Source of the DNA: a virus
Strand: one strand, 5' to 3'
IMG/VR virus record: IMGVR_UViG_3300027963_000324
Span: 1 to 24,535 of that record
DNA: 24,535 nt
The notes under the pieces are model-generated. The model saw nothing but the letters and a program-made list of their open reading frames with translations, was not told the DNA's origin and searched no databases. Of this stretch, positions 2,025 to 21,501 are shown piece by piece (position 1 is the stretch's first letter; every line of letters starts with the position of its first letter). The position numbers and the translations under genes were made by a program.

Positions 2025-4195
2025 TGGCTGACTACACTGGTATTAACGCTGTTGGCAACGTCGCACTGGGTGGCAAACCACTCAAGAGCGACTCAGATGT
2101 GTTGTCAACAGCGCGAGATCGCCTGTCGATGGCAATCTCGGCGTACTCTGAGAGTCGAGAGGATGAGCTAGACGACCTGCGGTTTTACGCAGGTAGCCCT
2201 GATAACCAGTGGCAATGGCCGGCAGATGTGCTGGCGACCCGTGGTGCGGTGCAGGGTCAGACGATTAACGCTCGGCCATGCTTGACAATTAACAAGCTAC
2301 CGCAGCACGTACATCAGATTACCAACGATCAGCGCCAGAATCGGCCTAGTGTCAAGGTCATTCCGGTTGATGACAACGCGGACGTTGAGGTCGCCGAGAT
2401 TTTCAACGGCATGATTCGGCATATCGAGTACATCTCGGATGCAGATGTGGCCTACGATACTGCTTGCGAGAACCAAGTTGCGTATGGCGAAGGTTATATT
2501 CGGATTCTGACCGAGTATTGCGACGACGATACGTTTGACCAAGACATCAAGATTGCGCGGGTTCGCAATAGTTTCTCGGTCTACATGGACCCGCTGATTC
2601 AGGACCCATGCGGCAGTGATGCCGAGTGGTGTTTTATCACTGAGGACTTGTCTAAAGCCGAATACGCGCGGTTGTTTCCTAACGCATCTCCACTCTCTAC
2701 GCTTGAGACGCTGGGTGTAGGGGATCAGAACCTGAGCCAGTGGCTAAATACCGATACGATTCGTATTGCTGAGTATTTTTATTGCGAATACGACACGCAG
2801 ACGTTGAATTTGTATCCTGGTAATGTGACTGCGTTCCAAGGAACGCCGGAAGACAAAGAGTTGCGGGCGGTTTACGGCAAACCGAAGAAGTCGCGCCAAG
2901 CGGATCGCAAGAAGATTTGCTGGACAAAGATTAACGGCTACGAAATCCTTGAAAAGCAGGAATGGGCCGGTAGTTGCATCCCTGTTGTGCGGGTGATTGG
3001 CAACGAATACGAGGTTGAGGGTCGGATTTACATTAGTGGGTTGGTGCGTAACGCCAAAGATGCACAACGGATGTACAATTATTGGACTAGCCAAGAGGCA
3101 GAAATGCTGGCGCTGGCTCCAAAGGCCCCGTTTATTGGTTATGGCGGTCAGTTTGAGGGGTACGAGACCCAGTGGAAGACCGCAAACACAAATAACTGGC
3201 CTTATTTGGAGGTCAACCCGGACGTAACGGACGGTCAAGGCGCGATATTGCCGCTGCCCCAACGGGCGCAGCCGCCAATGGCGTCATCTGGCCTGTTGCA
3301 AGCTAAAGTTGGTGCTTCCGAGGACATCAAGTCTGCTACGGGGCAGTACAACGCCTCGTTGGGCATGACATCTAACGAGCGTTCTGGCAGAGCTATTCTG
3401 GCCCGCCAGCGTGAGGGTGATGTTGGTACTTACCACTACCAAGACAACCTAGCACGGGCTGTACGGTACGTTGGTCGCCAGTTGGTGGACATGATCCCCA
3501 AAATTTACGACACGCAGCGCATTGCCAGAATCATTGGGTTGGACGGCGAGACGAAGATGGTCAAGATTGACCCGACTCAGGCCGAACCAGTGCGTAAGAT
3601 CCAGAATCAAGAAGGAATTGTGATTGATAAGATCTACAATCCTTCGGTTGGCAAGTACGACGTAGTGGTTGCAACGGGTCCGGGGTACGCCACTAAGCGT
3701 CAAGAGGCACTTGAGGCGATGGCGCAGCTACTGCAAGGTAACCCGCAATTGTGGGCGGTGGCTGGCGATCTGTTCGTTAAGAACATGGACTGGCCTGGGG
3801 CGCAGGAAATGGCAAAGCGGTTTGCCAAGACGATTGATCCCAAGCTCATGGGTGATGCCGAGGATAATCCAGCTTTGCAAGCAGCACAGCAGCAGATGCA
3901 AGCGATGGCGGCAGAATTGGATCAGTTGCACAATATGCTGCAAAATGTCGGCAAGTCTATGGAAGCGCAGGACATGGAGCGCAAGGACTTTGAGGCGCAG
4001 ATTAAAGCGTACCAAGCTGAGACGCAACGTATTAGCGCTGTTCAGGCGGGTATGTCCGAAGAGCAGATCCAAGACATTGCAATGGGCGTGGTCGCTGCGG
4101 CTATTGAGTCTCAGAACCTTATGAATCAAATGCCTGAAATGCGTGAGGAATCCATGCCGATGGAAATGATGCCTTCTGAAGGGATGATGCAATGA
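2024..4195 (+). CDS. Portal protein (P22-like)
   Basis: A 723-aa protein, nearly the size of P22 gp1 (725 aa), in the expected position after terminase. The portal is the dodecameric DNA channel at the capsid vertex that docks terminase. Visible features are a charged N-terminus with LRFYAGSPDNQW, the core INKLPQHVHQITNDQRQNRP, and a Gln/Met-rich helical C-terminus from about residue 610 that could form the barrel. I chose ATG 2024 over the in-frame GTG at 2018 because it overlaps the preceding TGA and follows GGAAG. The Met-rich tail (PMEMMPSEGMMQ) is compositionally odd. The stop overlaps the next gene by 4 bases. Confidence 0.93.
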   Translation: MADYTGINAVGNVALGGKPLKSDSDVLSTARDRLSMAISAYSESREDELDDLRFYAGSPDNQWQWPADVLATRGAVQGQTINARPCLTINKLPQHVHQITNDQRQNRPSVKVIPVDDNADVEVAEIFNGMIRHIEYISDADVAYDTACENQVAYGEGYIRILTEYCDDDTFDQDIKIARVRNSFSVYMDPLIQDPCGSDAEWCFITEDLSKAEYARLFPNASPLSTLETLGVGDQNLSQWLNTDTIRIAEYFYCEYDTQTLNLYPGNVTAFQGTPEDKELRAVYGKPKKSRQADRKKICWTKINGYEILEKQEWAGSCIPVVRVIGNEYEVEGRIYISGLVRNAKDAQRMYNYWTSQEAEMLALAPKAPFIGYGGQFEGYETQWKTANTNNWPYLEVNPDVTDGQGAILPLPQRAQPPMASSGLLQAKVGASEDIKSATGQYNASLGMTSNERSGRAILARQREGDVGTYHYQDNLARAVRYVGRQLVDMIPKIYDTQRIARIIGLDGETKMVKIDPTQAEPVRKIQNQEGIVIDKIYNPSVGKYDVVVATGPGYATKRQEALEAMAQLLQGNPQLWAVAGDLFVKNMDWPGAQEMAKRFAKTIDPKLMGDAEDNPALQAAQQQMQAMAAELDQLHNMLQNVGKSMEAQDMERKDFEAQIKAYQAETQRISAVQAGMSEEQIQDIAMGVVAAAIESQNLMNQMPEMREESMPMEMMPSEGMMQ

Positions 4196-4554
4196 AGTGC
4201 GCGGATTTTGTAGGGCTGTTGTTCTTGGCGCGAGATGTAGCCCATAGCGTACATCTGAACACGCGCAGCTACAGCAAGCACAAGGCGCTTGGTCATTTTT
4301 ATGAGCTAATTGTTGAAGCGGCAGATGACTTTGCCGAAGCGTACCAGGGTCGGCACGGTTTGATCGGGCCGATCACGCTGATGACAGCCAAAAAAACAAC
4401 TAATATTGTTGAATTCTTAGAAGAGCAGTTGAAAGAAATTGAGGGTTGTCGGTACGAAATTGTTGACAAGACGGATATGTCTTTGCAGCAATTGATTGAT
4501 AACATTATAGAAATTTACCTTCGCGCCTTGTACCGTCTGAGGTTCTTGGCATGA
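4192..4554 (+). CDS. DUF5856-like helical protein
   Basis: A 120-aa, mostly helical protein is coupled to portal and fibre genes by ATGA overlaps at both ends. Conserved-looking segments are RDVAHSVHLNTRSYSKHKAL near residues 14-33, HFYELIVEAADDFAEAYQGR at about 36-55, and a C-terminal LQQLIDNIIEIYLRALYRLRF. This layout is what I recall of DUF5856, a family in phages and bacteria with a ferritin/Dps-like helical look. The His and Glu residues (H17, H21, H30, H36, E39, E43) could form a metal site, but that is unverified inference. Its role in a virion operon is unknown. Confidence 0.68.
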   Translation: MKCADFVGLLFLARDVAHSVHLNTRSYSKHKALGHFYELIVEAADDFAEAYQGRHGLIGPITLMTAKKTTNIVEFLEEQLKEIEGCRYEIVDKTDMSLQQLIDNIIEIYLRALYRLRFLA

Positions 4555-5405
4555 CATTAACTGTCAACCATTCAACCGCTGCCGATGGCTCGTTTAGCGC
4601 CACGGGAGCGACCGCGTGGAATGCAGCACATACGTTGTCTGGAACGATTGATATTGCCAACGGTGGAACTGGACAGACTACATCGACAGCGGCAATCAAT
4701 GCGTTGTTGCCAACTCAAGCCACTAATTCTGGTAAATATCTAACCACTGACGGAACCAACACTTCTTGGGCTACGGTTAGCGGTTCTGGGACGGTTACGA
4801 GCGTCTCAGTTGTGTCTGCAAATGGTTTGGCTGGGTCAGTAGCCAACGCTACTACAACGCCAGCCATAACGCTGTCTACAAGCATAACAGGGGTATTAAA
4901 AGGCAACGGCACGGCGATCAGCGCGGCCACTAGCGGGACTGATTACCAAGCACCTATTACGTTAACCACAACCGGAACATCTGGTGCGGCTACGTTTGTA
5001 AGCAACGTCTTAAATATTCCGCAATACACGGGTGGCGGTGGTGGAACTCCTGGCGGGTCTAACACCCAGATCCAATTTAATAATTCCGGTTCGTTTGGCG
5101 GGTCTGCAAATTTCACTTGGGATGGCACTAACGCTCAGTTAGGTTCACAAGGAGCGTTGCGGTTTGCTGATGCGGATAGCAGCAATTATGTAGCGTTTAA
5201 ATCCCCGGCTACGGTTGCCACAAACGTGACTTGGACGTTGCCAAGTGCAGATGGGGCATCTTCGCAGGTGCTTTCTACCAATGGTTCTGGCACGTTGTCT
5301 TGGGTAACTCAAAGCGGTGGTGGAGGCGGCAGTCCGAATTTGGACGGTGGAACACCATCAAGTAATTATGGCGGTATTACCGCAATTGACGGAGGTACAC
5401 CGTAA
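4551..5405 (+). CDS. Gly/Ser/Thr-rich tail fibre-like protein
   Basis: A 284-aa low-complexity beta-rich protein. It has the phage-fibre signature IANGGTGQTT at about residues 37-46, SGKYLTTDGTNTSWATVSG at about 61-79, then GTVTSVSVVSANG, two glycine linkers (TGGGGGTPGG and SGGGGGSP), and an ending DGGTPSSNYGGITAIDGGTP. Such modules form trimeric shafts in side fibres. No catalytic domain is visible. It is therefore a likely fibre shaft or adaptor for host recognition, by composition and context. The last codons GGA GGT also form the ribosome site of the following gene. Start ATG 4551 overlaps the upstream TGA. Confidence 0.75.
   Translation: MTLTVNHSTAADGSFSATGATAWNAAHTLSGTIDIANGGTGQTTSTAAINALLPTQATNSGKYLTTDGTNTSWATVSGSGTVTSVSVVSANGLAGSVANATTTPAITLSTSITGVLKGNGTAISAATSGTDYQAPITLTTTGTSGAATFVSNVLNIPQYTGGGGGTPGGSNTQIQFNNSGSFGGSANFTWDGTNAQLGSQGALRFADADSSNYVAFKSPATVATNVTWTLPSADGASSQVLSTNGSGTLSWVTQSGGGGGSPNLDGGTPSSNYGGITAIDGGTP
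5391..5395 (+). promoter_or_regulatory. Shine-Dalgarno GGAGG embedded in coding sequence
   Basis: GGAGG lies 9 bases before ATG 5405, inside the last codons (Asp-Gly-Gly-Thr-Pro) of the upstream fibre gene. It supports the 5405 start, and the same bases encode the terminal IDGGTP motif. Confidence 0.65.
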
Positions 5406-6229
5406 TGGCCGTTCAGATTCAACTTAGAAATGGTACTGCCGCGCAATGGACATCTGCCAATCCCACGCTTGCCGTTGGCGAATTAGGTGCTGAAACAGAT
5501 ACGGGCAAATTTAAAATTGGTACTGGGTCAACGGCTTGGAATAGCCTTGCCTATGCGGCGGTTGGTACTGTTACTTCCGTAGCGCAGTCATTTACCGGCG
5601 GTATTGTTTCGGTTGCGGGTTCTCCTGTTTCAACTTCGGGCACTTTGGCTTTGACGGTCGCCGGGACTAGCGGCGGAGTTCCATACTTTTCAAGCGGCAC
5701 GGCTTGGGCATCTTCTGCTGCATTGGCGGCAAATGCTTTGGTTATTGGTGGTGGTGCTGGCGCGGCCCCGGCAACGACCACGACCGGCACGGGTGTTTTG
5801 ACGTTCTTGGGGACGCCATCTAGCGCGAACTTGCTTTCGGCGATGACTGATGACACCGGCACTGGGCTGTTGGTCTTCAACAATGCTCCGGCGCTGACTA
5901 ATCCGACTGTTACGAACTACGTTGAGACGCTGTATTCGGCCAACACTAGCACGGCAATCACGGTTGATTTGACCAACGGAACTGTCCAGAACCTGACGCT
6001 GACGGGCAATGCAACGATCACAATGCCAACTGCTGTAGCTGGCAAATCGTTCATTATTATCCTCTCTCAGGACGCAACCGGAAGCCGGACGGTTACTTGG
6101 TCAACCGTATCTTGGCCTTCCGCAACCGCGCCAACAATCACCAGCACCGCGAGTAAACGGGATATTTTCTCGTTTTTCTCTAACGGTACAAGCTGGTTTG
6201 GAACAACACTCGGACAAAATTACACATAA
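5405..6229 (+). CDS. Tail fibre protein with Mtd_N-like N-terminal domain
   Basis: A 274-aa protein. Residues 1-50 (VQIQLRNGTAAQWTSANPTL, then GELGAETDTGKFKIGTGSTA) match the N-terminal domain known from the Bordetella phage major tropism determinant (Mtd_N) and many fibres, where it mediates trimerisation or attachment. The rest is a Gly/Thr/Ala-rich repeat region (GTVTSVAQSF, GTSGGVPYFSSGTAW), then a beta-rich C-terminal domain with LTGNATITMPT and RTVTWSTVSWPS. The role is probably receptor-binding or fibre extension. ATG 5405 overlaps the previous TAA by one base and is preceded by GGAGG. No Mtd lectin domain or variable repeat is apparent. Confidence 0.8.
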   Translation: MAVQIQLRNGTAAQWTSANPTLAVGELGAETDTGKFKIGTGSTAWNSLAYAAVGTVTSVAQSFTGGIVSVAGSPVSTSGTLALTVAGTSGGVPYFSSGTAWASSAALAANALVIGGGAGAAPATTTTGTGVLTFLGTPSSANLLSAMTDDTGTGLLVFNNAPALTNPTVTNYVETLYSANTSTAITVDLTNGTVQNLTLTGNATITMPTAVAGKSFIIILSQDATGSRTVTWSTVSWPSATAPTITSTASKRDIFSFFSNGTSWFGTTLGQNYT

Positions 6230-8223
6230 TGTTTGCTGCATCTAAATCAGGTCGAGTTGCCGCTGCCGCCGCCACTACGGACCCGTATTTTCCGTATGTC
6301 CCGTTGCTGTTGGAGACAACCAGCACTAACGGGCAGCAGAACAATACGTTTCTAGACTCCAGCACCAACGCATTCACCATCACCCGCAACGGAACCCCGA
6401 CGCAGGGGTCTGTGACTCCGTACTGGCCTAATGGGCAATGGAGTAATTTTTTTAATGGCAGTCCGGACTATTTATATAATAGCTCAAACAATGTAGCACT
6501 TCAAATGGGGACCGGCGATTATACAGTTGAGTTTTGGGCATATTCACTTGGATTTTTTTCTGGGTTTCCTGTTCTTTTAGAGATTGGTAGGCCGTCAGCA
6601 TCAGCGGGTGTTGGATTTCAAATTGACATAAACACAGCTGGTAATGTTGTTGTGTATGGAGGGACAGGAACCGGAACCTTATTGGTTACTTCTTCGCAAG
6701 CTATATCTCAATACAATTGGTGTCATATTGCGTTAGTTAGATCTAGCGCAGGAACAAAATTGTATATTAATGGTTCTCAATCTGGATCAACTGCGTCTGA
6801 TAGCACAAATTATACTAATGGCTATTTGTGGATTGGTGTTAACGCTGGTGGGGCAGCTTCATTTTATACCGGTTATCTTTCAAATATTCGCGTAGTCAAA
6901 GGCACGGCTGTCTACACCTCCAACTTTACGCCTAGCACAACCCCGCTCACGGCAATTACCAATACTTCGCTGCTGACCTGCCAAAGCAACAGGTTCATTG
7001 ACAACAGCGCTAACAACTTTACCATCACGGCGAACGGCACTCCCCGCGTCCAAGCATTCCAGCCGTTCTCACCGACTGCTTCGTACACCGCTGCGGCGTA
7101 TGGGGGAAGTGGGTATTTTAATGGAAGCACTGATTATTTAAGTCTTGCCGATAATACTGCGTTACAACTTGGTACGGGTGATTTTACAATTGAAGGATGG
7201 TTCTACATTTCTGGGGCCACTTCAACTGCATACAATTTAATTAGCAAGGGCGCGGCGGCAACTGGATGGTCGTTAAATACCACAACCGGCGCAAGGATTC
7301 AATTTAGTTATACGGCATCAAATTTGACAGGGGCAACCACAACTCTTGTACAAGGAGCGTGGTATCACATTGCTGTAGTTCGTTCTGGAAGCGCGTCTGG
7401 AAATTTAAAAATTTATATCAACGGAGTTCAAGAAATTGCAAGTGCAGGTGCGGTTAATGACGATTTTAACCAAACTAGCACAATGTACATTTCTGCCAGC
7501 AGAACTGCTACTTTGCCGTTAAATGGATATTCTTCAAATGTCCGGGTGGTAAAAGGCACAGCCGTTTACACCGCAGCTTTTACGCCTCCAACAACCCCAC
7601 TTACAGCAATTACTAACACCAGTCTTCTAGCTAACTACACCAACGCCGGGATCTACGACGCTGCGGTGCAGAACAATACGCTTACGGTCGGAGATGCCCA
7701 AGCATCAACCACGGTATCTAAGTGGTCGCCAACGAGCATGAAGTTTGATGGGACTGGGGATTGGTTGACGGCTATTGACAACCCGCAACTACAACTTGGC
7801 ACGGGAGATTTTACGATTGACGGATGGCTGTACCTATCTGCAAACGGCGTTGTTTACGGGCTTGTCAGCAAGGGAACGGCAACAACAGGATGGTCGGTCA
7901 ACGTAACAATATTAAACAAACTTCAGTTTAGCTATACGACGTCCAACTTGACTGGCACAACAACATTAGCCACAGGCACTTGGTATTATTTTGCTGTGGT
8001 GCGATCTGGCAGCGCAAGTGGGAACCTGAAGGTTTATCTAAATGGATCGGTTGATGCCACTAGCGGCGGCGCTGTGACGGACAACTTTAACCAAACAAAT
8101 ATTCTGTATGTTGGTGCAGATCGGGTTGGGGCAATGCCTGTAAACGGATACTTGCAAGACGTTCGGGTTACAAAATACGCTCGCACGATCACGACGCCAA
8201 CAGCAGCATTCCCAACGAGGTAA
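6229..8223 (+). CDS. Triple LamG/concanavalin-like lectin fibre protein
   Basis: A 664-aa protein with three LamG-type jelly-roll domains at about residues 72-235, 295-455 and 504-664. Each carries an LQ[ML]GTGD[YF]T[IV][ED] strand, a GxWYxxAVVRS-type strand (CHIALVRSS in copy 1), an LK[IV]Y[IL]NG-type strand and an R-V-K/T-K closing strand. Copies 1 and 2 each end in VVKGTAVYT followed by TPLTAITNTSLL. Linkers with NAFTITRNGTP and NNFTITANGTP precede copies 1 and 2. LamG folds bind glycans, so surface-sugar binding on the host is likely (inference). Copies 2 and 3 are visibly more alike than either is to copy 1. Base composition is uneven along the gene. It overlaps the previous stop (TAATG). 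Confidence 0.85.
   Translation: MFAASKSGRVAAAAATTDPYFPYVPLLLETTSTNGQQNNTFLDSSTNAFTITRNGTPTQGSVTPYWPNGQWSNFFNGSPDYLYNSSNNVALQMGTGDYTVEFWAYSLGFFSGFPVLLEIGRPSASAGVGFQIDINTAGNVVVYGGTGTGTLLVTSSQAISQYNWCHIALVRSSAGTKLYINGSQSGSTASDSTNYTNGYLWIGVNAGGAASFYTGYLSNIRVVKGTAVYTSNFTPSTTPLTAITNTSLLTCQSNRFIDNSANNFTITANGTPRVQAFQPFSPTASYTAAAYGGSGYFNGSTDYLSLADNTALQLGTGDFTIEGWFYISGATSTAYNLISKGAAATGWSLNTTTGARIQFSYTASNLTGATTTLVQGAWYHIAVVRSGSASGNLKIYINGVQEIASAGAVNDDFNQTSTMYISASRTATLPLNGYSSNVRVVKGTAVYTAAFTPPTTPLTAITNTSLLANYTNAGIYDAAVQNNTLTVGDAQASTTVSKWSPTSMKFDGTGDWLTAIDNPQLQLGTGDFTIDGWLYLSANGVVYGLVSKGTATTGWSVNVTILNKLQFSYTTSNLTGTTTLATGTWYYFAVVRSGSASGNLKVYLNGSVDATSGGAVTDNFNQTNILYVGADRVGAMPVNGYLQDVRVTKYARTITTPTAAFPTR
6418..8223 (+). 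repeat. Three degenerate linker-LamG repeat units
   Basis: Protein-level tandem repeats with lectin cores starting at about 6444, 7111 and 7738, a spacing of roughly 220 and 210 codons. Copies 2 and 3 share long stretches such as VVRSGSASGNLK, FSYT(A/T)SNLTG and DNFNQT/DDFNQT. The repeat is divergent at DNA level, so it is an old or diversifying duplication rather than a recent exact one. Confidence 0.75.
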
Positions 8224-8225
8224 TC

Positions 8226-8642
8226 ATGCAACTCGCTAATCAAGATCTGGTCATTAAAGACCACACAGAGTGGTTTCCTAACACTTCGTTTGGCGACCGT
8301 GGCCCATCGCTCGATTGGATTGCCGAACAGGGTTACTATGTCATCTCGGTTTGGAAGCCATACAACCACGCAACTGAAAAGTTGGTTTCTGCCGCTCCGC
8401 ATCTGTTTGACGGAATGTGCTGTCTGGTTGACGTTGAGCCATTGACTGCTGACGAGCTCCAGGCTCGCATTGACACGCAATGGCAGGTCATTCGCACTCA
8501 GCGCAACCAGATGCTTAAGGATACGGACTGGACGCAATTGGAAGACTCCCCCGTTGGCAAAGCAAAATGGGCGGCGTACCGGCAAGAGCTTCGTGATATA
8601 ACTACGCAAGATGATCCGTTTGACATCACTTGGCCGAAATGA
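8226..8642 (+). CDS. Phage tail assembly chaperone-like protein
   Basis: A 138-aa protein whose C-terminal part (about residues 80-138) contains RTQRNQMLKDTDWTQLEDSP, a segment with GKAKWAAYRQELRDI, and the ending DPFDITWP. That is the signature of the tail-assembly-chaperone-like family (PF16778 type), often encoded next to tail fibre genes. The N-terminal 80 residues (SLDWIAEQGYYVISVWKPYN) resemble accessory domains in such proteins. It plausibly helps fold or assemble the preceding lectin fibre. ATG 8226 follows GAGG just before the upstream TAA. The stop overlaps the next ATG (ATGA). Confidence 0.8.
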   Translation: MQLANQDLVIKDHTEWFPNTSFGDRGPSLDWIAEQGYYVISVWKPYNHATEKLVSAAPHLFDGMCCLVDVEPLTADELQARIDTQWQVIRTQRNQMLKDTDWTQLEDSPVGKAKWAAYRQELRDITTQDDPFDITWPK

Positions 8643-8860
8643 ACTTTTTTGGTGGTTCGTTTTTTAGCGGAAGTTTTTTTGAGACTGTAGCTGGTACATT
8701 TTTTGGCGGACAGTTTTTCAGCGGCGGCTTTTTTCAGACGGCCTACAACACTTACTTTAGCGGGCCGTTTTTCAGCGGCGGGTTTTTTGATTCTGTGGTG
8801 GTCGGTGCAGACCAATTGTTGATTAAACTTCGGTCATTCACCGAAAGAAGGAGATTTTGA
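8639..8860 (+). CDS. Phe/Gly-rich 18-residue-repeat miniprotein
   Basis: A 73-aa protein in which 19 residues are Phe and 12 Gly. Residues 3-56 form three 18-residue repeats of the pattern [FY]F(G/S)G-x-FFSG(S/G)FF followed by eight more residues: units start at residues 3, 21 and 39. The tail (residues 57-73) is basic and hydrophilic, ending in ERRRF. It is coupled to the upstream gene by ATGA and has no strong ribosome site. An in-frame TTG at 8630 is possible but less likely. Function unknown. The 5-residue sub-period with paired aromatics suggests a small beta-solenoid or an aggregation-prone adhesive strip (inference). I recall similar FFGG-repeat phage miniproteins without assigned function. 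Confidence 0.72.
   Translation: MNFFGGSFFSGSFFETVAGTFFGGQFFSGGFFQTAYNTYFSGPFFSGGFFDSVVVGADQLLIKLRSFTERRRF
8645..8806 (+). repeat. Three 54-bp tandem coding repeats
   Basis: Units at 8645-8698, 8699-8752 and 8753-8806 each encode 18 residues with FF pairs at matching positions. The DNA carries runs of six or seven T residues (TTT TTT codons), making it prone to slippage. Confidence 0.72.
8848..8853 (+). promoter_or_regulatory. Shine-Dalgarno AAGGAG deciding the 8860 start
   Basis: AAGGAG lies 6 bases before ATG 8860 and favours that codon over the in-frame TTG at 8857. Confidence 0.7.
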
Positions 8861-9165
8861 TGGCTATTAACCTCAAAGCAATTACCTCGGTAATGGGCTA
8901 CCAGCAGATCACAAGTCTGAGTTCTGCTACCAAATTGACCGTACCGCCCCGCGATATAAGCGGATTGATTGGATCCCCTCGGATTGCTATCATTACGCCC
9001 GAAACGCAAGCCGTGCGCTGGCGTGACGATGGCGTAGCTCCAACCGCAAGCGTTGGGATGCCGTTGGCCGCTGGTGTTACGCTACAGTATGACGGTGATC
9101 TGTCGCAGATTCAGTTCATTGAGCAAACTGCCAGCGCCAAGTTGAACATCACTTACTATTCTTGA
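8860..9165 (+). CDS. Small conserved phage structural-region protein
   Basis: A 101-aa protein, probably all-beta, with TPETQAVRWRDDGVAPTASV at about residues 46-65 and AAGVTLQYDGDLSQIQFIEQ at about 70-89. It ends in AKLNITYYS. I recall this RWRDDG...TASVGMPL pattern from many phage genomes, always unnamed, in the head/tail gene region. It looks like a compact beta-barrel virion component, but this is inference. A strong AAGGAG ribosome site and a TGATG overlap with the previous gene support the start. Confidence 0.75.
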   Translation: MAINLKAITSVMGYQQITSLSSATKLTVPPRDISGLIGSPRIAIITPETQAVRWRDDGVAPTASVGMPLAAGVTLQYDGDLSQIQFIEQTASAKLNITYYS

Positions 9166-9172
9166 GGCCAAA

Positions 9173-9661
9173 ATGCAAGTCTCTAACGACACAACCTCAG
9201 TTGACCCAATTGAGTACATTACCAAGCAGTTGCCCAAGGACTTGGTGCAGTTGCTACAGGTGCGTGACGAGTTGGCTGTTCGCCAAGGTGCTTTGTCTGC
9301 GGCTCAAGATGCCATGACTGACCGCGAAGCGGCCAGACAAGAATTGGCTGCGGCTCGTGAAGAAGCAAACGGATTACGGGCTGAAGCAAAGACCGACCGC
9401 GATGCCGCTAGGCTAGAGTTGTACAACGCCAAAGCAAAAGTTAAAGATACTACTGCACAAGCTAACGCTGCGCTTGCTGCTGCGGTAAACCGTGAGATCG
9501 CGGTTGAGTCGCGAGAAAAAGCGGTGGCAGATCGTGAGGCTTATCAGACTGCGGCCCAGGTTGAGATTGACAGCCAACAGGCTGATCTGAAAGCCAAGAC
9601 CGCCGCCTTGGACGCTCGCATAAAAGCGTTTCAAGATAAAGTTGCTGCACTTACTGCGTAG
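9173..9661 (+). CDS. Coiled-coil protein, unknown function
   Basis: A 162-aa protein, nearly all helical. From about residue 30 to the end it is rich in Ala, Glu, Arg and Asp with heptad-like spacing (REAARQELAAAREEANGLRA, then VESREKAVADREAY). The N-terminal 30 residues contain DPIEYITKQLPKDLVQLLQV. There is no membrane segment. Coiled coils between fibre genes can act as trimerisation or assembly factors, but no specific family is recognised. The ribosome site GAGG overlaps the upstream TGA stop. Confidence 0.68.
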   Translation: MQVSNDTTSVDPIEYITKQLPKDLVQLLQVRDELAVRQGALSAAQDAMTDREAARQELAAAREEANGLRAEAKTDRDAARLELYNAKAKVKDTTAQANAALAAAVNREIAVESREKAVADREAYQTAAQVEIDSQQADLKAKTAALDARIKAFQDKVAALTA

Positions 9662-9669
9662 GAAAAATC

Positions 9670-10173
9670 ATGCCCGCTGTGTCTCTTTCAATTTTTGGTG
9701 GTGTTGGGGCGCAGTTTTTTGACAACAACGGCGTTCCGCTATCCGGTGGCAAGATTTACACCTACGAGGCGGGCACAACAACGCCATTAGCCACGTACAC
9801 CTCATCGTCTGGCAGCACCGCGCACACCAACCCAATTATTCTTAATTCTGCTGGGCGTGTGCCTAGCGGCGGTGAAATTTGGAATCAGTTACGGTTGTAC
9901 AAGTTTGTGCTTGAAACCAGCACAAATGTTTTAATTGCCTCATACGACAATGTAGGGAGCAGCTTCAACGCCACCGCAATCATTGCCAATTTCACCGGCA
10001 ACGGCTCCACGGTTGCATTTACGTTGGCAAGCGCCCCTGCGGGTGAGAATTCCACCAACGTGTACATCAACGGTGTGTACCAGCAAAAGAACACGTACAG
10101 CGTTGCGGGTGCTGTTCTTACATTCTCTCAAGCACCTCCAGTTACTTCAACTATTGAAGTCAACTACGTCTAA
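9670..10173 (+). CDS. Tailspike/fibre anchor-like protein
   Basis: A 167-aa protein. Residues 1-90 carry QFFDNNGVPLSGGKIYTYEA, then GTTTPLATYT and NPIILNSAGRVP, the pattern seen at the N-termini of P22-type tailspikes (head-binding domain) and many fibres. Residues 100-167 form a second beta unit with FTGNGSTVAFTL and TNVYINGVYQQKNTYSVAG. No catalytic domain follows; the beta-helix protein is encoded two genes downstream. It is likely an adaptor joining adhesins to the virion (inference). The site TAGGA upstream overlaps the previous stop. Confidence 0.78.
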   Translation: MPAVSLSIFGGVGAQFFDNNGVPLSGGKIYTYEAGTTTPLATYTSSSGSTAHTNPIILNSAGRVPSGGEIWNQLRLYKFVLETSTNVLIASYDNVGSSFNATAIIANFTGNGSTVAFTLASAPAGENSTNVYINGVYQQKNTYSVAGAVLTFSQAPPVTSTIEVNYV

Positions 10174-10182
10174 GGAACAATT

Positions 10183-10932
10183 ATGGCCGATACTAAAATT
10201 TCCGCTCTTACGGCGGCGACAACTCCTCTGGCGGGGACAGAAGTACTGCCAATTGTTCAATCTGGAGCTACGGTTAAAGTCGCAAACAATGATTTGCGCC
10301 CAAAACAAATTCAATCAAATGCAACTAGCGGTGTGTTGCAAGTTGCCGGACCTACTGCTGCTGCGACCCGCGTAATGACGACGCCAGACGCAAATTTTAC
10401 GGTGGCTCGCACTGATGCGGCACAATCGTTTACTGGCAATCAAACATTAAGTACCGGCAACTTGGTTATTGGCACTTCGGGCGGAGGCGTCGACTTTTCT
10501 GCCACACCGGGCACCGGCACAAGCGAGTTGCTGGCTGACTATGAAGAAGGCACTTTTACCCCGCAATTGTTTTTTGGTGCTACTGAAATATCGGTATATA
10601 ACGCACAAGCAGGCTGGTATACAAAAGTAGGCAACACAGTGTATTTCACAGTGTTTATTCAAGTGCAGCAAAAAGGCGCTGGAACTGGTGCGGTTACTGT
10701 TCGTAATTTACCATTTACCTCTCAATCTTCAAATGACCACAAGTATTCTTTTAGCGTTACAGGTCAAAGTTTGACGTTGCTTACTGGCGCATTGTTTGGT
10801 GTCATGGATCAAAACACAACGCAAGTTGGTATTTTTCAGACTGACTCAACAGGCGGCGTTGCATTAACTGATGCGGCATTTACCACATTCAGTAACGACA
10901 ACGTAATCGTCACTGGCACATATCAAGTCTAA
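10183..10932 (+). CDS. Tail fibre-like protein
   Basis: A 249-aa protein beginning MADTKISALTAATTPLAGTE, a common short N-terminal fibre module. It is followed by a Thr/Ala-rich shaft (AATRVMTTPDANFTVARTDA, then LVIGTSGGGVDFSA) and a C-terminal beta domain from about residue 115 (LLADYEEGTFTPQLFFG, WYTKVGNTVYFTVFIQ, TGAVTVRNLPFTS). The EEGTFTP...YTKVGN...LPF pattern recurs at the tips of phage fibres. It is probably a receptor-binding protein. It starts at ATG after AAGGA that merges with the preceding TAA (TAAGGA). No enzymatic motif is seen. Confidence 0.78.
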   Translation: MADTKISALTAATTPLAGTEVLPIVQSGATVKVANNDLRPKQIQSNATSGVLQVAGPTAAATRVMTTPDANFTVARTDAAQSFTGNQTLSTGNLVIGTSGGGVDFSATPGTGTSELLADYEEGTFTPQLFFGATEISVYNAQAGWYTKVGNTVYFTVFIQVQQKGAGTGAVTVRNLPFTSQSSNDHKYSFSVTGQSLTLLTGALFGVMDQNTTQVGIFQTDSTGGVALTDAAFTTFSNDNVIVTGTYQV

Positions 10933-10940
10933 GGATTATT

Positions 10941-12656
10941 ATGGCGCTCACTAAAGCTAGCTACTCAATGGTAAGCGGAACGCCAATCAGCGTTCTGGAT
11001 TACGGTGCTGACCCAACAGGCGCTGCAAACAGCACTGCTGCATTTCAACTTGCCGTAAATGAGGCTATTTCCCGCGCTGCATCATTGGCTGCTGGGGGTT
11101 CGGTAATTGACCCTACTTTTGTAGCAACACCAAATGTTGTTATCCATTTTCCAAGTGGTAAATATTTACTCTCAGACGCAACTGGCGTAGATATTCCACC
11201 ACAAGCTGGAAGTGCTTTAGTCCAGGCGTGTATCACTTTTTCCTCGGATGAGGGCGGTGCCACTATTGTTGGAAATGTTACAAATATAGGGTTTAACTTT
11301 ACTGGTGGTGGATACAGAAACAAGTTTTCAAATATTTTATTTGCAAAGTTTGGAACTGCTATTCGCTTTGACACAAACAATAAAAACGAGTCATTTTTAC
11401 AGATTGACTCTTGCCGTTCGCAGAGTAATGACATTTTTATTGATACTGTAAGTTATGCAGAATCTCGGTCAACAATGATTGACATCCGCAATACTTATTG
11501 CGATGACACCCGAGTTTTTGTAAAGCATTACACCGATCACATGACAATTCGTGATTGCTGGATGTACGCCAAAAAAGACTCTTACGATGCGCTTTTGTAC
11601 TTGTCAGGCGATGGTAATGTCAATCTCTACGACAACTTCATGATTCCGTTTGGTTCTCAAATTCCAAACCCTCAGAACGCTCGTTGGATTGACTTTGTTT
11701 CTGAAAGTGCCCAAAGCACAATGACAGATCGAAGCGTTAAATTTCTAAACATCCGTGGTTGCCGAATGTCTTTAGAAAGCGCACGACCGTTTATTTGGAC
11801 GTATTCAAACACACCCCCCGGCCCACCCAATGCCATATCTTCAATCACGATTGAAGACAGCTACATTGGCGGCACTGGCGGCGCGTCCGTCATCACTTAC
11901 AAAACGGGATACCCTGGCAGCGTCAATCTTAAAAACTGCAAGGTTCTTTCTGCTCCGTTGATTGTCAGCGTTGATGCAGGCAATACAACCTACCCAGAAC
12001 CAAGTGTTGCAATTGGTGGAGGTGGGTTTTTAACCTATCACACAATCATGGTAGATGAAGCAACTCGCCTTTCTCAAAATAACAGCTTCACGATCAATCT
12101 TGGAAACTTGATTGACCCCAATCTGATGCCATTTTATGTGGACACCACCACACAAACGTCTAAATACAAGACAACTTTTCCTTGGGAAGTTCCTTCCGAC
12201 TATCGGATGCGTGCTGAAACAAACACAGGAACAACTGTCAAAACATCGTTCCCAATTTTCTTTGACTACAACCCGGCGGTTGCCAATAGAGACATTTGCT
12301 CTTTCATTCTTGTGACGGTAGGCAATGGAAACAGCGCGTTGTCAACATATCGGGCGCAGTCTACGTGCTTGGTGACAATCGTCGGTGGATTTACAGCTTC
12401 TGCTGAAAAAAGAATCATCACCACTGTTTTGCAAAACGCGCAAGGCGGCATCGCATACGCGATTTCCGCAAATCCAACTGTGACTTGGAATGCAACAGGT
12501 ACAGACACAATAGCTTTTGCAGGTTCTGGAACAACACAGGAGACAATCGATATGGTGTGGAACTCGACAAGCGCGAGTGTTTCTTGGGCTTACATCATTC
12601 CGTTGTCCGGCATAAGGCCAAATCAACCATCTCTGCAACAATTTAACGTCTGGTAA
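10941..12656 (+). CDS. Tailspike with pectate-lyase-like beta-helix (putative depolymerase)
   Basis: A 571-aa protein. The N-terminal motif ISVLDYGADPTGAANSTAAF at about residues 17-36 is the classic start of a right-handed parallel beta-helix of the Pectate_lyase_3 / GH28-like group. The middle (about 100-360) has repeated rungs such as FLQIDSCRS, TMIDIRNTYC, MTIRDCWMY and ITIEDSYIGG. The C-terminal 200 residues form a different, probably beta-sandwich, module. Such spikes bind and often cleave capsule or O-antigen. Catalytic residues cannot be assigned by eye. It lacks a P22-like head-binding domain, which occurs instead in the separate gene at 9670. The ribosome site is TAAGGA. Confidence 0.85.
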   Translation: MALTKASYSMVSGTPISVLDYGADPTGAANSTAAFQLAVNEAISRAASLAAGGSVIDPTFVATPNVVIHFPSGKYLLSDATGVDIPPQAGSALVQACITFSSDEGGATIVGNVTNIGFNFTGGGYRNKFSNILFAKFGTAIRFDTNNKNESFLQIDSCRSQSNDIFIDTVSYAESRSTMIDIRNTYCDDTRVFVKHYTDHMTIRDCWMYAKKDSYDALLYLSGDGNVNLYDNFMIPFGSQIPNPQNARWIDFVSESAQSTMTDRSVKFLNIRGCRMSLESARPFIWTYSNTPPGPPNAISSITIEDSYIGGTGGASVITYKTGYPGSVNLKNCKVLSAPLIVSVDAGNTTYPEPSVAIGGGGFLTYHTIMVDEATRLSQNNSFTINLGNLIDPNLMPFYVDTTTQTSKYKTTFPWEVPSDYRMRAETNTGTTVKTSFPIFFDYNPAVANRDICSFILVTVGNGNSALSTYRAQSTCLVTIVGGFTASAEKRIITTVLQNAQGGIAYAISANPTVTWNATGTDTIAFAGSGTTQETIDMVWNSTSASVSWAYIIPLSGIRPNQPSLQQFNVW

Positions 12657-12666
12657 AGGAGTCATC

Positions 12667-12954
12667 ATGGCACTTAGGCAAACAATCACAAAAACCTGTC
12701 CTTCAATTGCTTTGTTTGATGGGGTAAAAGTTGAATCTAATCCTGTTACTGTTTCAGATGTTTTTTACATTAAGGTTGAGGCAGTCACTGGAACAAAAGA
12801 AAAAGCAAATTGTTCTGTTTCTTTTACAGGTGAAAAAATTAAAATTCAAAAAATGTTTGAGTTCACCCCGTCAATGATGGCTGGAAACTTTATCGCGCAA
12901 GCATACGCGCACTTAAAAACCCTGCCAGAATTCGCTAGCGCAACTGACTGCTAA
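12667..12954 (+). CDS. Small protein of unknown function
   Basis: A 95-aa protein with a strong AAAGGAG ribosome site directly after the tailspike stop. The sequence alternates beta-type stretches (DVFYIKVEAVTGTKEKANCS) with a C-terminal helix containing MMAGNFIAQAYAHLKTLPEF. It has three cysteines (C14, C49, C95). I do not recognise a family. Position between tailspike and scaffold suggests a virion or assembly role. Confidence 0.65.
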   Translation: MALRQTITKTCPSIALFDGVKVESNPVTVSDVFYIKVEAVTGTKEKANCSVSFTGEKIKIQKMFEFTPSMMAGNFIAQAYAHLKTLPEFASATDC

Positions 12955-12966
12955 AAAGGAAATATC

Positions 12967-13218
12967 ATGACTCTCGAAAAAATCATCTCTGTTGATCTGA
13001 TTGAAATTGTCGAATCTGGCATTATTCAAGTCCGTACCAAGACCGCCATTAAAGAAGATGGCGTTGAGATCAGCAGCAACTTTCACCGCCACGTTGTCGT
13101 GCCCGGTGCTGACGTAAGTGGTGAAGATGCCAAAGTGCAAGCTATTGCTGCATCTATCCACACTGCTGAAGTTGTTGAAGCATATAGACTTGCACAACTT
13201 GACAAAACCCTTGCATAA
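12967..13218 (+). CDS. Small conserved phage protein of unknown function
   Basis: An 83-aa protein with AAAAGGA before its ATG. The pattern is VDLIEIVESGIIQVRTKTAI at about residues 9-28, then FHRHVVVPGADVSGEDAKVQ at about 39-58, and a C-terminal helix (HTAEVVEAYRLAQ). I recall VQVRTKT...HRHVVxPG...VxAI as a recurring unnamed phage miniprotein. The predicted shape is a beta-hairpin sheet plus helix. Just upstream of scaffold and coat it may be a structural accessory, but no function can be assigned. Confidence 0.72.
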   Translation: MTLEKIISVDLIEIVESGIIQVRTKTAIKEDGVEISSNFHRHVVVPGADVSGEDAKVQAIAASIHTAEVVEAYRLAQLDKTLA

Positions 13219-14014: not shown

Positions 14015-15226
14015 ATGTCAAATAGCATTCTTACGATTGACATGATCACCAGGAAGGCCCTGGAGATCTTGGAAAACAATCTGGTTCTTACCCGTAACGT
14101 CAACCGTCAGTACGACGACAGCTTTGCTGTTGAAGGCGCAAAGATCGGTTCGACCCTGCGTATTCGTCTGCCCGATCGCGCTCTGGTGACCGACGGTGCT
14201 GCCCTGCAAGTTCAGGACGACAACGAGCAGTTCACAACCCTGACCGTGGCTTCGCAGAAGCATATCGGCGTGAACTTTACGTCTGCCGAACTGACAATGC
14301 AGTTGGATGACTTTGCAGAGCGCGTCCTCAAGCCGCGTATCTCGCAGTTGGCCTCTAGCATTGACGCTGACGTTGCCAATGCTTACAAAGCAATTGGTAA
14401 CACGGTTGGCACCCCAGGCACCACGCCAGGAACCTCGCTCGTTTTGTTGCAAGCGCAGCAGAAGCTGAACGAGAACGCCGCTGTGATGTCGCCACGTTAT
14501 GCAACGGTTAACCCCGCTGCCAACGCTGGTCTGGTTGAAGGCATGAAGGGTCTGTTCAATCCTACGGACACAATCTCCAAGCAGTTTAAGAACGGCATGA
14601 TGGGGACTGGTGTTCTTGGGTTTGACGAGATCAATATGTCTCAGTCGATCAAGCAGCACACCACGGGTAACTTCCCTGTTTCGCCTATTGTTTCTTCTAG
14701 CGCCACGTTTGCTGAAGGTCAATCGACCCTCGCCATTACGTTCTCTAGCGGGACCAAGACGGTTAAGCAAGGCGACGTGTTCACCATTGCTAACGTGTAC
14801 GCTGTTAACCCACAGACCCGTGAGTCAACTGGCAGTTTGCAGCAGTTCGTTGTGACCGCTGACAACAGCGTGACCTCGGGCACTGCAATGACCTTGGCAA
14901 TTTCTCCGGCGCTTTACACGTCGGCAAATGCTTTGGCTACCATTGATGCGTTCCCAGCCACCAGCGCGGTTATCACGTTTGTTGGAACTGCATCAACTCA
15001 GTACCCACAGAACTTGGTCTACCACAAAGACGCAATCACGTTTGCCACGGCTGACTTGTTGCTGCCGCAGGGTGTTGATATGGCTGCCCGCGCAGTGCAT
15101 AACGGTATTTCGTTGCGTGTCGTGCGCCAGTACGATATTAACAACGACCGTCTGCCATGTCGTATTGACGTTCTGTATGGCTTCAGCACGATTCGTCCGC
15201 AGATGGCTTGCCGCGTCTGGGGTTAA
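14015..15226 (+). CDS. Major capsid (coat) protein, P22 gp5-like
   Basis: A 403-aa protein of the P22 gene-5 coat family (HK97-like fold; P22 gp5 is 430 aa). Hallmarks are the N-terminus SILTIDMITRKALEILENNL, a VNRQYDDSFAVEGAKIGSTL segment at about 28-47, VGVNFTSAEL-like IGVNFTSAELTMQLDDFAER at about 85-104, and a C-terminal IDVLYGFSTIRPQMACRV. An insertion around residues 220-340 is beta-rich and Thr/Ser-heavy, where P22 carries its I-domain. The ribosome site AAGGA precedes ATG. It is followed by a small beta-rich gene in the same transcript and then a terminator. Confidence 0.94.
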   Translation: MSNSILTIDMITRKALEILENNLVLTRNVNRQYDDSFAVEGAKIGSTLRIRLPDRALVTDGAALQVQDDNEQFTTLTVASQKHIGVNFTSAELTMQLDDFAERVLKPRISQLASSIDADVANAYKAIGNTVGTPGTTPGTSLVLLQAQQKLNENAAVMSPRYATVNPAANAGLVEGMKGLFNPTDTISKQFKNGMMGTGVLGFDEINMSQSIKQHTTGNFPVSPIVSSSATFAEGQSTLAITFSSGTKTVKQGDVFTIANVYAVNPQTRESTGSLQQFVVTADNSVTSGTAMTLAISPALYTSANALATIDAFPATSAVITFVGTASTQYPQNLVYHKDAITFATADLLLPQGVDMAARAVHNGISLRVVRQYDINNDRLPCRIDVLYGFSTIRPQMACRVWG

Positions 15227-20022: not shown

Positions 20023-21501
20023 ATGGCACTTCGACCTCTTGATCCGTCAATCGTCAACGCTTACCAAGCGCCCAAGTTCAATATGCCAGATCCTTTGCAG
20101 GATGCTGTTGCTATGGAACAACTTAGAAATTATAAAGCGGCGCGGCAAATCCGTGAGCAGGATTTGGCAAATGAAAACGAGTCTAAAACATTTTTGACAA
20201 ACATACAGAACACAATTACACAAGAGGGTGGGCCAGAACTGCGATTAGCAGTACCAAAAATGCTTGCTCACCCAAACGCTAAAATTAGGCAAGCTGCTGG
20301 TGCAATTCAAGAGCATCTTGATCGTCTTGATCGAATAGCTGAGTACAAAAAACTTAACCCAGAAGAACCAATCCAACCTACAGAAGGCGCAATAACGTCA
20401 CGCGTAGCGCCGTTAAGTGTTTCAATGCTTGAGACAGGGCCGGAAGGTGCTGCCCCACGCACGTTTCCAAATGCGCCGCCGGGAATGGCGGGGGTTACTG
20501 TAGGAACTGCTGAACGCGGAAGCAATGTTAGCCCTGCTGCCGCAGCGTCTACTAATGCTTTAATTCCTGATGCGTTTAAGCAACAGATACAAAACGAGTT
20601 AGCCAGAGCAGAAAAATTTGCTAGATTCTATGAAATTCAAGCGTTACGAGACCCTAAAGAATATAAAGACGCGGCAAAACAAGCCCGCGAACAAGTAAAT
20701 GCTTTAAGGAAAATGCAATCAATTGAACCAAACAGATTGCTGATGTTGGGCGACGTTTCCATGATGACGCCCCCCGCGCCAGAAGGAATGCCAGCAGATC
20801 AACGCTTGTTTAATGCGTACATGAGTATGACGCCTGATCAACAAGCGGCATTTGATAAATTTCGAATGGCTACCAAACCGACTACAACCATAAACGTCAG
20901 CGCCACAAACACGCCCCCCGGGAAAAGTTTAGCCGCGCCGATTGGACAACGCGCCGAAGCGTCTTTGGTAAAAGCTGAAGGCGCTACGGAAATTATGACT
21001 GCCGCGAATTCTGTGCGGGACGCGCTTAACACCGGCAACGTGATTGCTGGTCCGGGCGCGGGCATACGAACTAAGTTTGCTCAAGTTCTTGAAATGGCCG
21101 GCGTTGGCGATAAAGAAAAGTTGACCGCCACCCGTACCGCTATTCAAGGTATGGCTGACTTGACTTTGCAAAGCCGCGCTGAATTGAAAGGCCAAGGTCA
21201 GATCACAGACGCGGAAACCAAGTTGCTGGAGCGCGCGCGGTCTGGCGATATTGCCGATATGACTATCGCAGAACTTCAAACCGTTGTTAATGTATCGCAG
21301 CGTTTGGCTGGCCGGTTGTGGTCTAACCATCAGACGTTGCTAGGTACAATGAAAACCGATCCCGCTGCCGCTGACGTATTTAAATACTACACCCCGACTG
21401 CGGCTATGCCGCAAGCTCTTGAGGAAGGTAAGTCTGTATCTGAGCAAGAGAAAAAAGATAGATTATCTGGGCTAAAAACTATCTTTGGTACAAAACAATG
21501 A
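20023..21501 (+). CDS. Ejection / internal virion protein, large helical
   Basis: A 492-aa protein, mostly helical. The N-terminus LDPSIVNAYQAPKFNMPDPL is followed by long charged helices (residues 30-120), a Pro/Ala-rich low-complexity stretch at about 115-190, and a C-terminal helical domain with GPGAGIRTKFAQVLEMAGVG at about 344-363 and LKGQGQITDAETKLLERARS at about 388-407. The latter region resembles C-terminal parts of phage internal-virion proteins as I recall them. P22 encodes three ejection proteins in this position (gp7, gp20, gp16). The assignment is by order, size and composition. The stop overlaps the next ATG (ATGA). Confidence 0.75.
   Translation: MALRPLDPSIVNAYQAPKFNMPDPLQDAVAMEQLRNYKAARQIREQDLANENESKTFLTNIQNTITQEGGPELRLAVPKMLAHPNAKIRQAAGAIQEHLDRLDRIAEYKKLNPEEPIQPTEGAITSRVAPLSVSMLETGPEGAAPRTFPNAPPGMAGVTVGTAERGSNVSPAAAASTNALIPDAFKQQIQNELARAEKFARFYEIQALRDPKEYKDAAKQAREQVNALRKMQSIEPNRLLMLGDVSMMTPPAPEGMPADQRLFNAYMSMTPDQQAAFDKFRMATKPTTTINVSATNTPPGKSLAAPIGQRAEASLVKAEGATEIMTAANSVRDALNTGNVIAGPGAGIRTKFAQVLEMAGVGDKEKLTATRTAIQGMADLTLQSRAELKGQGQITDAETKLLERARSGDIADMTIAELQTVVNVSQRLAGRLWSNHQTLLGTMKTDPAAADVFKYYTPTAAMPQALEEGKSVSEQEKKDRLSGLKTIFGTKQ

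Follow-up and report, generated by a model that had tools for sequence, protein, structure and literature searches.

A conserved C-terminal peptide on a phenylalanine-rich miniprotein and other variable phage proteins: a candidate docking tag

An N-terminal domain is the usual anchor of phage parts that determine host range. Short terminal peptides can also direct proteins to a common structure; encapsulin cargo targeting peptides and the T4 capsid targeting sequence each send otherwise unrelated proteins to one shell. Encapsulins are the subject of a review (PMC7355545). In modular receptor-binding proteins (RBPs), for example those of Klebsiella phages, a conserved N-terminal anchor is joined to an exchangeable C-terminal part, as far as the account in PMC8262889 goes. 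In tentaclins and T4 Hoc-like proteins, the N-terminal part varies, and a conserved C-terminal part is presumed to serve virion attachment; in tentaclins, the anchor is a C-terminal Ig-like domain, C-type lectin and Ig domains are variable, and DGR cassettes are present (PMC10743442).

Here, we describe a gene for a small phenylalanine-rich protein (FF protein) in the window, which is the whole stretch of 24,535 nucleotides analyzed and derives from a 24.5-kb IMG/VR virus record. P22-type genes in the window encode terminase, scaffold, portal (phrog_156), coat (phrog_283), and the head closure protein Hc3 (phrog_578). A 518-aa gene at 21498–23054 matches phrog_21712 ("major head protein"), though the coat gene is at 14015; this label may be mistaken, and the gene sits where ejection proteins are expected. 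The ORF of the FF protein translates as MNFFGGSFFSGSFFETVAGTFFGGQFFSGGFFQTAYNTYFSGPFFSGGFFDSVVVGADQLLIKLRSFTERRRF, followed by the stop codon. Phenylalanine accounts for 19 of the 73 residues (26%), and residues 3–56 form three in-register units with the core FF-x3-FF-x3-FF, the third of which starts with YF instead of the first FF. The DNA copies of the unit, 54 nt apart, show 76–88% identity to the middle copy, and the summed period-18 identity of the protein is 30/54, a value equaled by none of 5000 residue shuffles (best shuffle, 17). The three in-register, phenylalanine-rich units that a first-pass annotation had read from this sequence are thus confirmed. So is the coupling to a chaperone-like gene behind a lectin fiber, as the ATG at 8639 overlaps the stop of the upstream gene (ATGA) and the two neighbors match PF16778 and Laminin_G_3, respectively. 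Overlooked at that stage were the overlap of the FF gene stop with the start of a 101-aa gene (TGATG, 8858–8862), the tag formed by residues 57–73, and the fact that the body preceding it can be swapped. Coordinates are collected in Table 1.

Table 1. Features of the FF protein locus, in window coordinates
Feature	Position	Strand	Basis
FF miniprotein gene, 73 aa	8639..8860	+	Sequence and 68 distinct homologues
Three 54-nt/18-aa units (8645-8698, 8699-8752, 8753-8806)	8645..8806	+	54-nt spacing, shuffles, alignment
Constant C-terminal tag, residues 57-73, ADQLLIKLRSFTERRRF; core RSFTER at 8831-8848	8807..8857	+	
Shine-Dalgarno-like AGAAGGAG of the 101-aa gene, inside tag codons	8846..8853	+	Sequence
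101-aa predicted jelly-roll protein gene; constant neighbor, candidate tag partner	8860..9165	+	Gene relatives, model
Tail fiber assembly chaperone (Phage_tail_APC, PF16778, E 1.8e-14)	8226..8642	+	Pfam match
Lectin-type fiber protein, three Laminin_G_3 stretches, in the exchanged cassette	6229..8223	+	Pfam match
Exchangeable cassette: fiber genes 4551-5405, 5405-6229, and 6229-8223, chaperone, FF body without tag	4551..8807	+	No homology to L091
Constant block: tag, 101-aa gene, coiled-coil-like gene 9173-9661, first ~89 codons of fiber gene 9670-10173	8808..9937	+	L091 homology

A first scan of IMG/VR gave 112 confirmed relatives of the FF protein, the best 80 of which were kept, and at least 68 distinct FF proteins were collected from this source. 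All of them retain the exact FF-x3-FF-x3-FF spacing (Tyr allowed). The pN/pS ratio is 0.23 for the last FF unit, 0.18 for the tag, and 0.18 for the neighboring 101-aa gene, and TTT and TTC are exchanged freely at the FF codons; gathering the set by pattern lowers pN and leaves the TTT/TTC mixture unaffected. No broken copies were recognized among the collected sequences, although this is again a pattern-gathered set, which a broken copy could escape. Because the homologues all keep the spacing and pN/pS is not near 1, sequence comparison indicates that the ORF is a functional gene, in line with the earlier view of a real, selected protein linked to fiber and chaperone genes. No family for the protein exists in PHROGs, Pfam, or NCBIfam, and neither FF proteins nor the tag gave a match in the INPHARED phages, where the BLAST low-complexity filter may hide the FF part.

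FF relatives contain one, two, three, or four units, with one being the commonest, and units are joined by linkers of 4 or 6 residues, giving a period of 16 or 18 in the alignment. Because most members have a single unit, the three-unit form in the window is probably an expansion. The AlphaFold (AF2) model of the FF protein shows no confident fold (pTM 0.33); its C-terminal part is drawn as a helix at low confidence, which speaks neither for nor against docking. A β-solenoid needs several stacked coils, and the single-unit majority speaks against such a fold; the three-unit solenoid originally suggested is not supported as the functional unit. Our guess is that the units probably act as a minimal aromatic packing or oligomerizing body, and this is the weakest step of the explanation given below. 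Some other short tagged bodies, namely those of L395 (WGxSW), L415 (SSFSITAFSVNAFAF), L214 (GFAPISALPISAI), and L394 (FGFASFSELPFCAL), also place aromatic or hydrophobic motifs ~5 residues apart, as if such short strips had been reached by different lineages separately.

By far the most widely shared part of the FF protein is its C-terminal tag of ~17 residues (14–17), with the core pattern [IV]-x-[LI]-R-S-F-T-E-R-R-R-[FI], and the same tag ends proteins that otherwise have no likeness to the FF protein. To avoid circularity, slots were anchored on relatives of the downstream 101-aa gene, with the best 80 kept per scan. Among the matches listed, the tag or a variant of it ends ~170 of 174 distinct slots; 142 carry the strict pattern, and the other 32 were judged by eye, all but ~4 being variants with endings such as RSFTQPRRF, RTFATSFTQSRRMS, RSFTGRS, RPFGGRF, and similar. 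In the ~4 exceptions, the 101-aa gene is present and the tag is absent. The strict motif was found nowhere else in the loci fetched until then, except in one slot at a contig end, and a looser pattern occurred in 8 other contexts in 422 loci. Simple patterns sort the bodies of 196 distinct tagged slots into 110 with FF units, 39 with GQ-hairpin repeats, 15 with ETxD repeats, 2 with WGxSW repeats, and 30 others; the bodies range from 38-aa FF proteins to ~1000-aa repeat proteins, the longest tagged ORF having 1030 codons. Almost no long body matched PHROGs or Pfam, and few fit a known fiber family; the body of L218 gave a borderline match to Gly_rich_2. No published description of such a C-terminal tag was found in the open-access literature, which is weak evidence.

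Two variants of the tag deserve separate mention. In L223 (1540–1773) and L302 (2382–2615), a 77-aa protein of the same cassette, encoded two genes upstream of an untagged 101-aa gene, has a tag-like stretch, MKRYMYSDTPIVDLRSATEYW (IVDLRSATEYW), near its N-terminus, followed by repeats resembling those of GQ bodies. This stretch is possibly a displaced tag, seen in two contigs only, and, if so, it would argue strongly for a docking peptide. In L039 (2007–2225), loss of one base carries the tag beyond its usual stop and adds ~22 residues that reach into the 101-aa frame region; the stop is normal in the closely related L040, and L039 is either a real variant or a sequencing error.

Comparison of the window with the related locus L091 shows the limits of exchange most clearly. 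The two are homologous from 2711 to 4550 (88% identity), unrelated across the cassette, and homologous again (78% identity) from a position inside the first tag codon up to 9937, around residue 89 of the next fiber gene, whose N-terminal region matches phrog_26190. In other pairs of FF and non-FF loci, homology resumes within ~10 nt of the tag, and for L395 and L403 it resumes ~25 nt before it. The latter two have identical 101-aa genes and different bodies (WGxSW and GQ, respectively), and the 101-aa genes of L017 (43-codon FF ORF) and L091 (735-codon ETxD ORF) share 97% identity. The tree of the 101-aa gene implies at least 21 changes between FF and non-FF bodies, a rough number from one short gene. 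Because the preceding gene in many relatives is something other than a Phage_tail_APC chaperone, the chaperone is part of the cassette and not a fixed partner of the FF gene. At the left border of the cassette (window 4192–4554), directly after the portal gene, lies a 120-aa gene matching phrog_858 ("starvation-inducible transcriptional regulator"), which occupies the same place in tagless loci too. A second exchangeable stretch spans window 9937–13215, where homology to L091 ends ~89 residues into the gene at 9670–10173 and returns just before the scaffold gene.

The constant neighbor of the tag encodes a protein of 101 residues predicted to be a jelly roll, or double-stranded β-helix, with its first 8 residues disordered (mean pLDDT 82; five models, 38 to 82). 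The model resembles PM2 spike P1 (Z 8.6), cupins, and endospore appendage subunits, a common type, as well as many unnamed small phage proteins; among solved structures, no close relative was matched (best Foldseek E 0.008; the top VIA score, Z 8.7, is one that unrelated models often reach). Searches of GTDB genome contigs gave no confirmed relative of the gene, and INPHARED gave one weak match, in MW202577. This sole relative found in an annotated phage (L273:5971–6258, MW202577.1; ~35% over two-thirds of the length) has no tag before it and closely follows a 398-aa gene that sits where a coat gene usually lies, a location that would suit a head decoration role. In tagless loci, the 101-aa and coiled-coil genes are in the same place behind ordinary upstream sequence; the 101-aa gene is therefore not dependent on the tag.

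We propose that an exchangeable fiber cassette in a P22-like podovirus ends with the gene of the FF protein, which has two parts, a variable N-terminal body and the constant C-terminal tag. The body, made of FF-x3-FF-x3-FF units here and of β-type repeats, glycine-rich or other modules in relatives, would in its FF form be the smallest occupant of the slot. The tag would be a docking or assembly peptide fixing whichever body it carries to a constant virion component, for which the adjacent 101-aa protein is the first candidate. As judged from sequence, the chances that the tag docks the last protein of a swappable fiber cassette to the virion are about evenly balanced. The tag is read as an anchor mainly because the N-terminal constant part of the fiber protein on one side of the constant block mirrors the C-terminal tag on the other, and the fiber, lectin, and chaperone genes of the cassette also favor this reading. 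Against it, the tag runs exactly up to the overlap with the start codon of the following gene, leaving room for a translational role, and the ~4 tagless slots imply that a 101-aa partner does not need the tag. A conserved tag on a swappable body suggests a cassette of virion-attached proteins, and we infer a virion location for the FF protein. Among the functions first put forward for it, fiber capping or adhesion comes nearest to such a cassette, whereas membrane activity fits poorly with its low hydropathy.

Several other readings of the tag were weighed. The conserved object could be an RNA element of hairpin and Shine–Dalgarno sequence, with the peptide mere read-through: the window tag codons hold the hairpin TTCGGTCATTCACCGAA together with the Shine–Dalgarno sequence of the 101-aa gene, and in the window and the main group TTCGGT-loop-ACCGAA lies immediately 5′ of the latter. 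However, while the peptide stays fixed, the first, second, and third codon positions of RSFTER differ pairwise by 1.28, 0.27, and 3.70 on average (97 distinct core versions); the tag arginine, invariant in 108 versions, uses five codons; and the tags of 54 divergent representatives, many of which have no hairpin, do not have lower folding energy than synonymous shuffles (Fisher p 0.68). No further copies of the tag DNA element are present in the window. Because of the third-position divergence, the five arginine codons, and the shuffle result, the data argue that the peptide is selected and the hairpin incidental, and the RNA element was rejected as highly improbable; only the last three tag codons (RRF) are probably held by the Shine–Dalgarno sequence as well. 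It is scarcely credible, too, that the tag is functionless, a remnant at the head of the constant block that persists only because cassettes recombine through its homology. Homology between phages does begin at the tag, but its amino-acid identity is held through strong third-position divergence between groups and the frame into it is kept on all body types, which is not expected for a mere recombination site. A small membrane-active peptide of holin- or lysis-like type, with a hydrophobic front and a basic end, is suggested by the one-unit members (38–40 aa, rich in FF pairs and basic at the C-terminus). A hydropathy of 1.6 is the rule of thumb for a membrane span; the best 19-residue value averages 1.1 in the FF family, similar to other bodies and low for a span, and the same basic tail occurs on soluble-looking proteins of up to ~1000 aa. 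With the gene also sitting in a fiber cassette, we regard this reading as very unlikely.

The main rivals to docking are capsid cargo and a regulatory nascent peptide. As a capsid-targeting peptide, the tag would mark internal proteins that are packaged or ejected, like encapsulin cargo or T4 internal proteins, and would not serve external docking. A short, basic, terminal peptide on unrelated proteins is the typical look of such signals and widely differing bodies suit cargo, but the cassette consists of fiber, lectin, and chaperone genes and the long bodies, rich in repeats, resemble adhesins rather than enzymes; we consider it unlikely. Alternatively, the tag could be a nascent-chain or termination-coupled peptide that tunes initiation of the overlapping 101-aa gene, a reading that draws on the closeness of the stop to the following start, with a few bases at most between them in almost every slot, and on the position of the Shine–Dalgarno sequence inside the tag codons. 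A ribosome paused at the stop would, however, cover that Shine–Dalgarno sequence, the motif tolerates endings such as RRMS, RS, and H, and tagless groups keep a well formed 101-aa gene. The tag-like stretch near the N-terminus of another gene in L223 and L302, two contigs only, would also be unexplained by a stop-linked device, and regulation of this kind appears quite unlikely.

The docking reading, if true, would account for a large number of phage genes that are short or rich in repeats and lack annotation, and it would predict virion-borne genes in hundreds of uncultured phages. A more specific form of it, which the sequences make tentative and somewhat doubtful, is a plug-and-socket display in environmental podoviruses, whereby a peptide of 14–17 residues (xIxLRSFTERRRF) would plug unrelated bodies into a virion socket formed by the constant 101-aa jelly-roll protein. 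The bodies would then extend from a 20-residue FF strip to a ~1000-residue protein, and the whole fiber cassette would be exchangeable provided that its last gene joins the tag in frame. Compared with an N-terminal anchor domain, a short C-terminal peptide shared by unrelated bodies would be another, very compact means of swapping virion parts.

When set against described systems, the FF gene directly follows a Phage_tail_APC (PF16778) chaperone gene, and the FF protein itself is not a member of that family, the match belonging to the neighbor. With encapsulin and T4 targeting, the tag has in common that a short conserved terminal peptide is found on unrelated proteins; its sequence and setting differ, so that the likeness would be one of principle only. 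As with modular RBPs, to the extent that these are covered in PMC8262889, a constant part lies next to the backbone, a swapped part carries specificity, and cassettes are exchanged, the variable part of the FF protein being exchanged between related phages. Unlike those proteins, the FF protein has its constant part at the C-terminus, where homology to L091 begins (8808), and this part is a peptide rather than a domain. The usual N-terminal RBP arrangement is seen in the gene at 9670, which flanks the constant block on its other side. The order of a variable N-terminal and a conserved C-terminal part is that of tentaclins and Hoc-like proteins (PMC10743442), but no such anchor domain was matched in the FF protein, of 73 aa with a 17-residue tag; it gave no Pfam match, and no Ig or C-lectin match was found in ten long tagged bodies. 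By its short C-terminal peptide, the tag thus differs from both of the nearest designs, the N-terminally anchored RBPs as presented in PMC8262889 and the tentaclins (PMC10743442).
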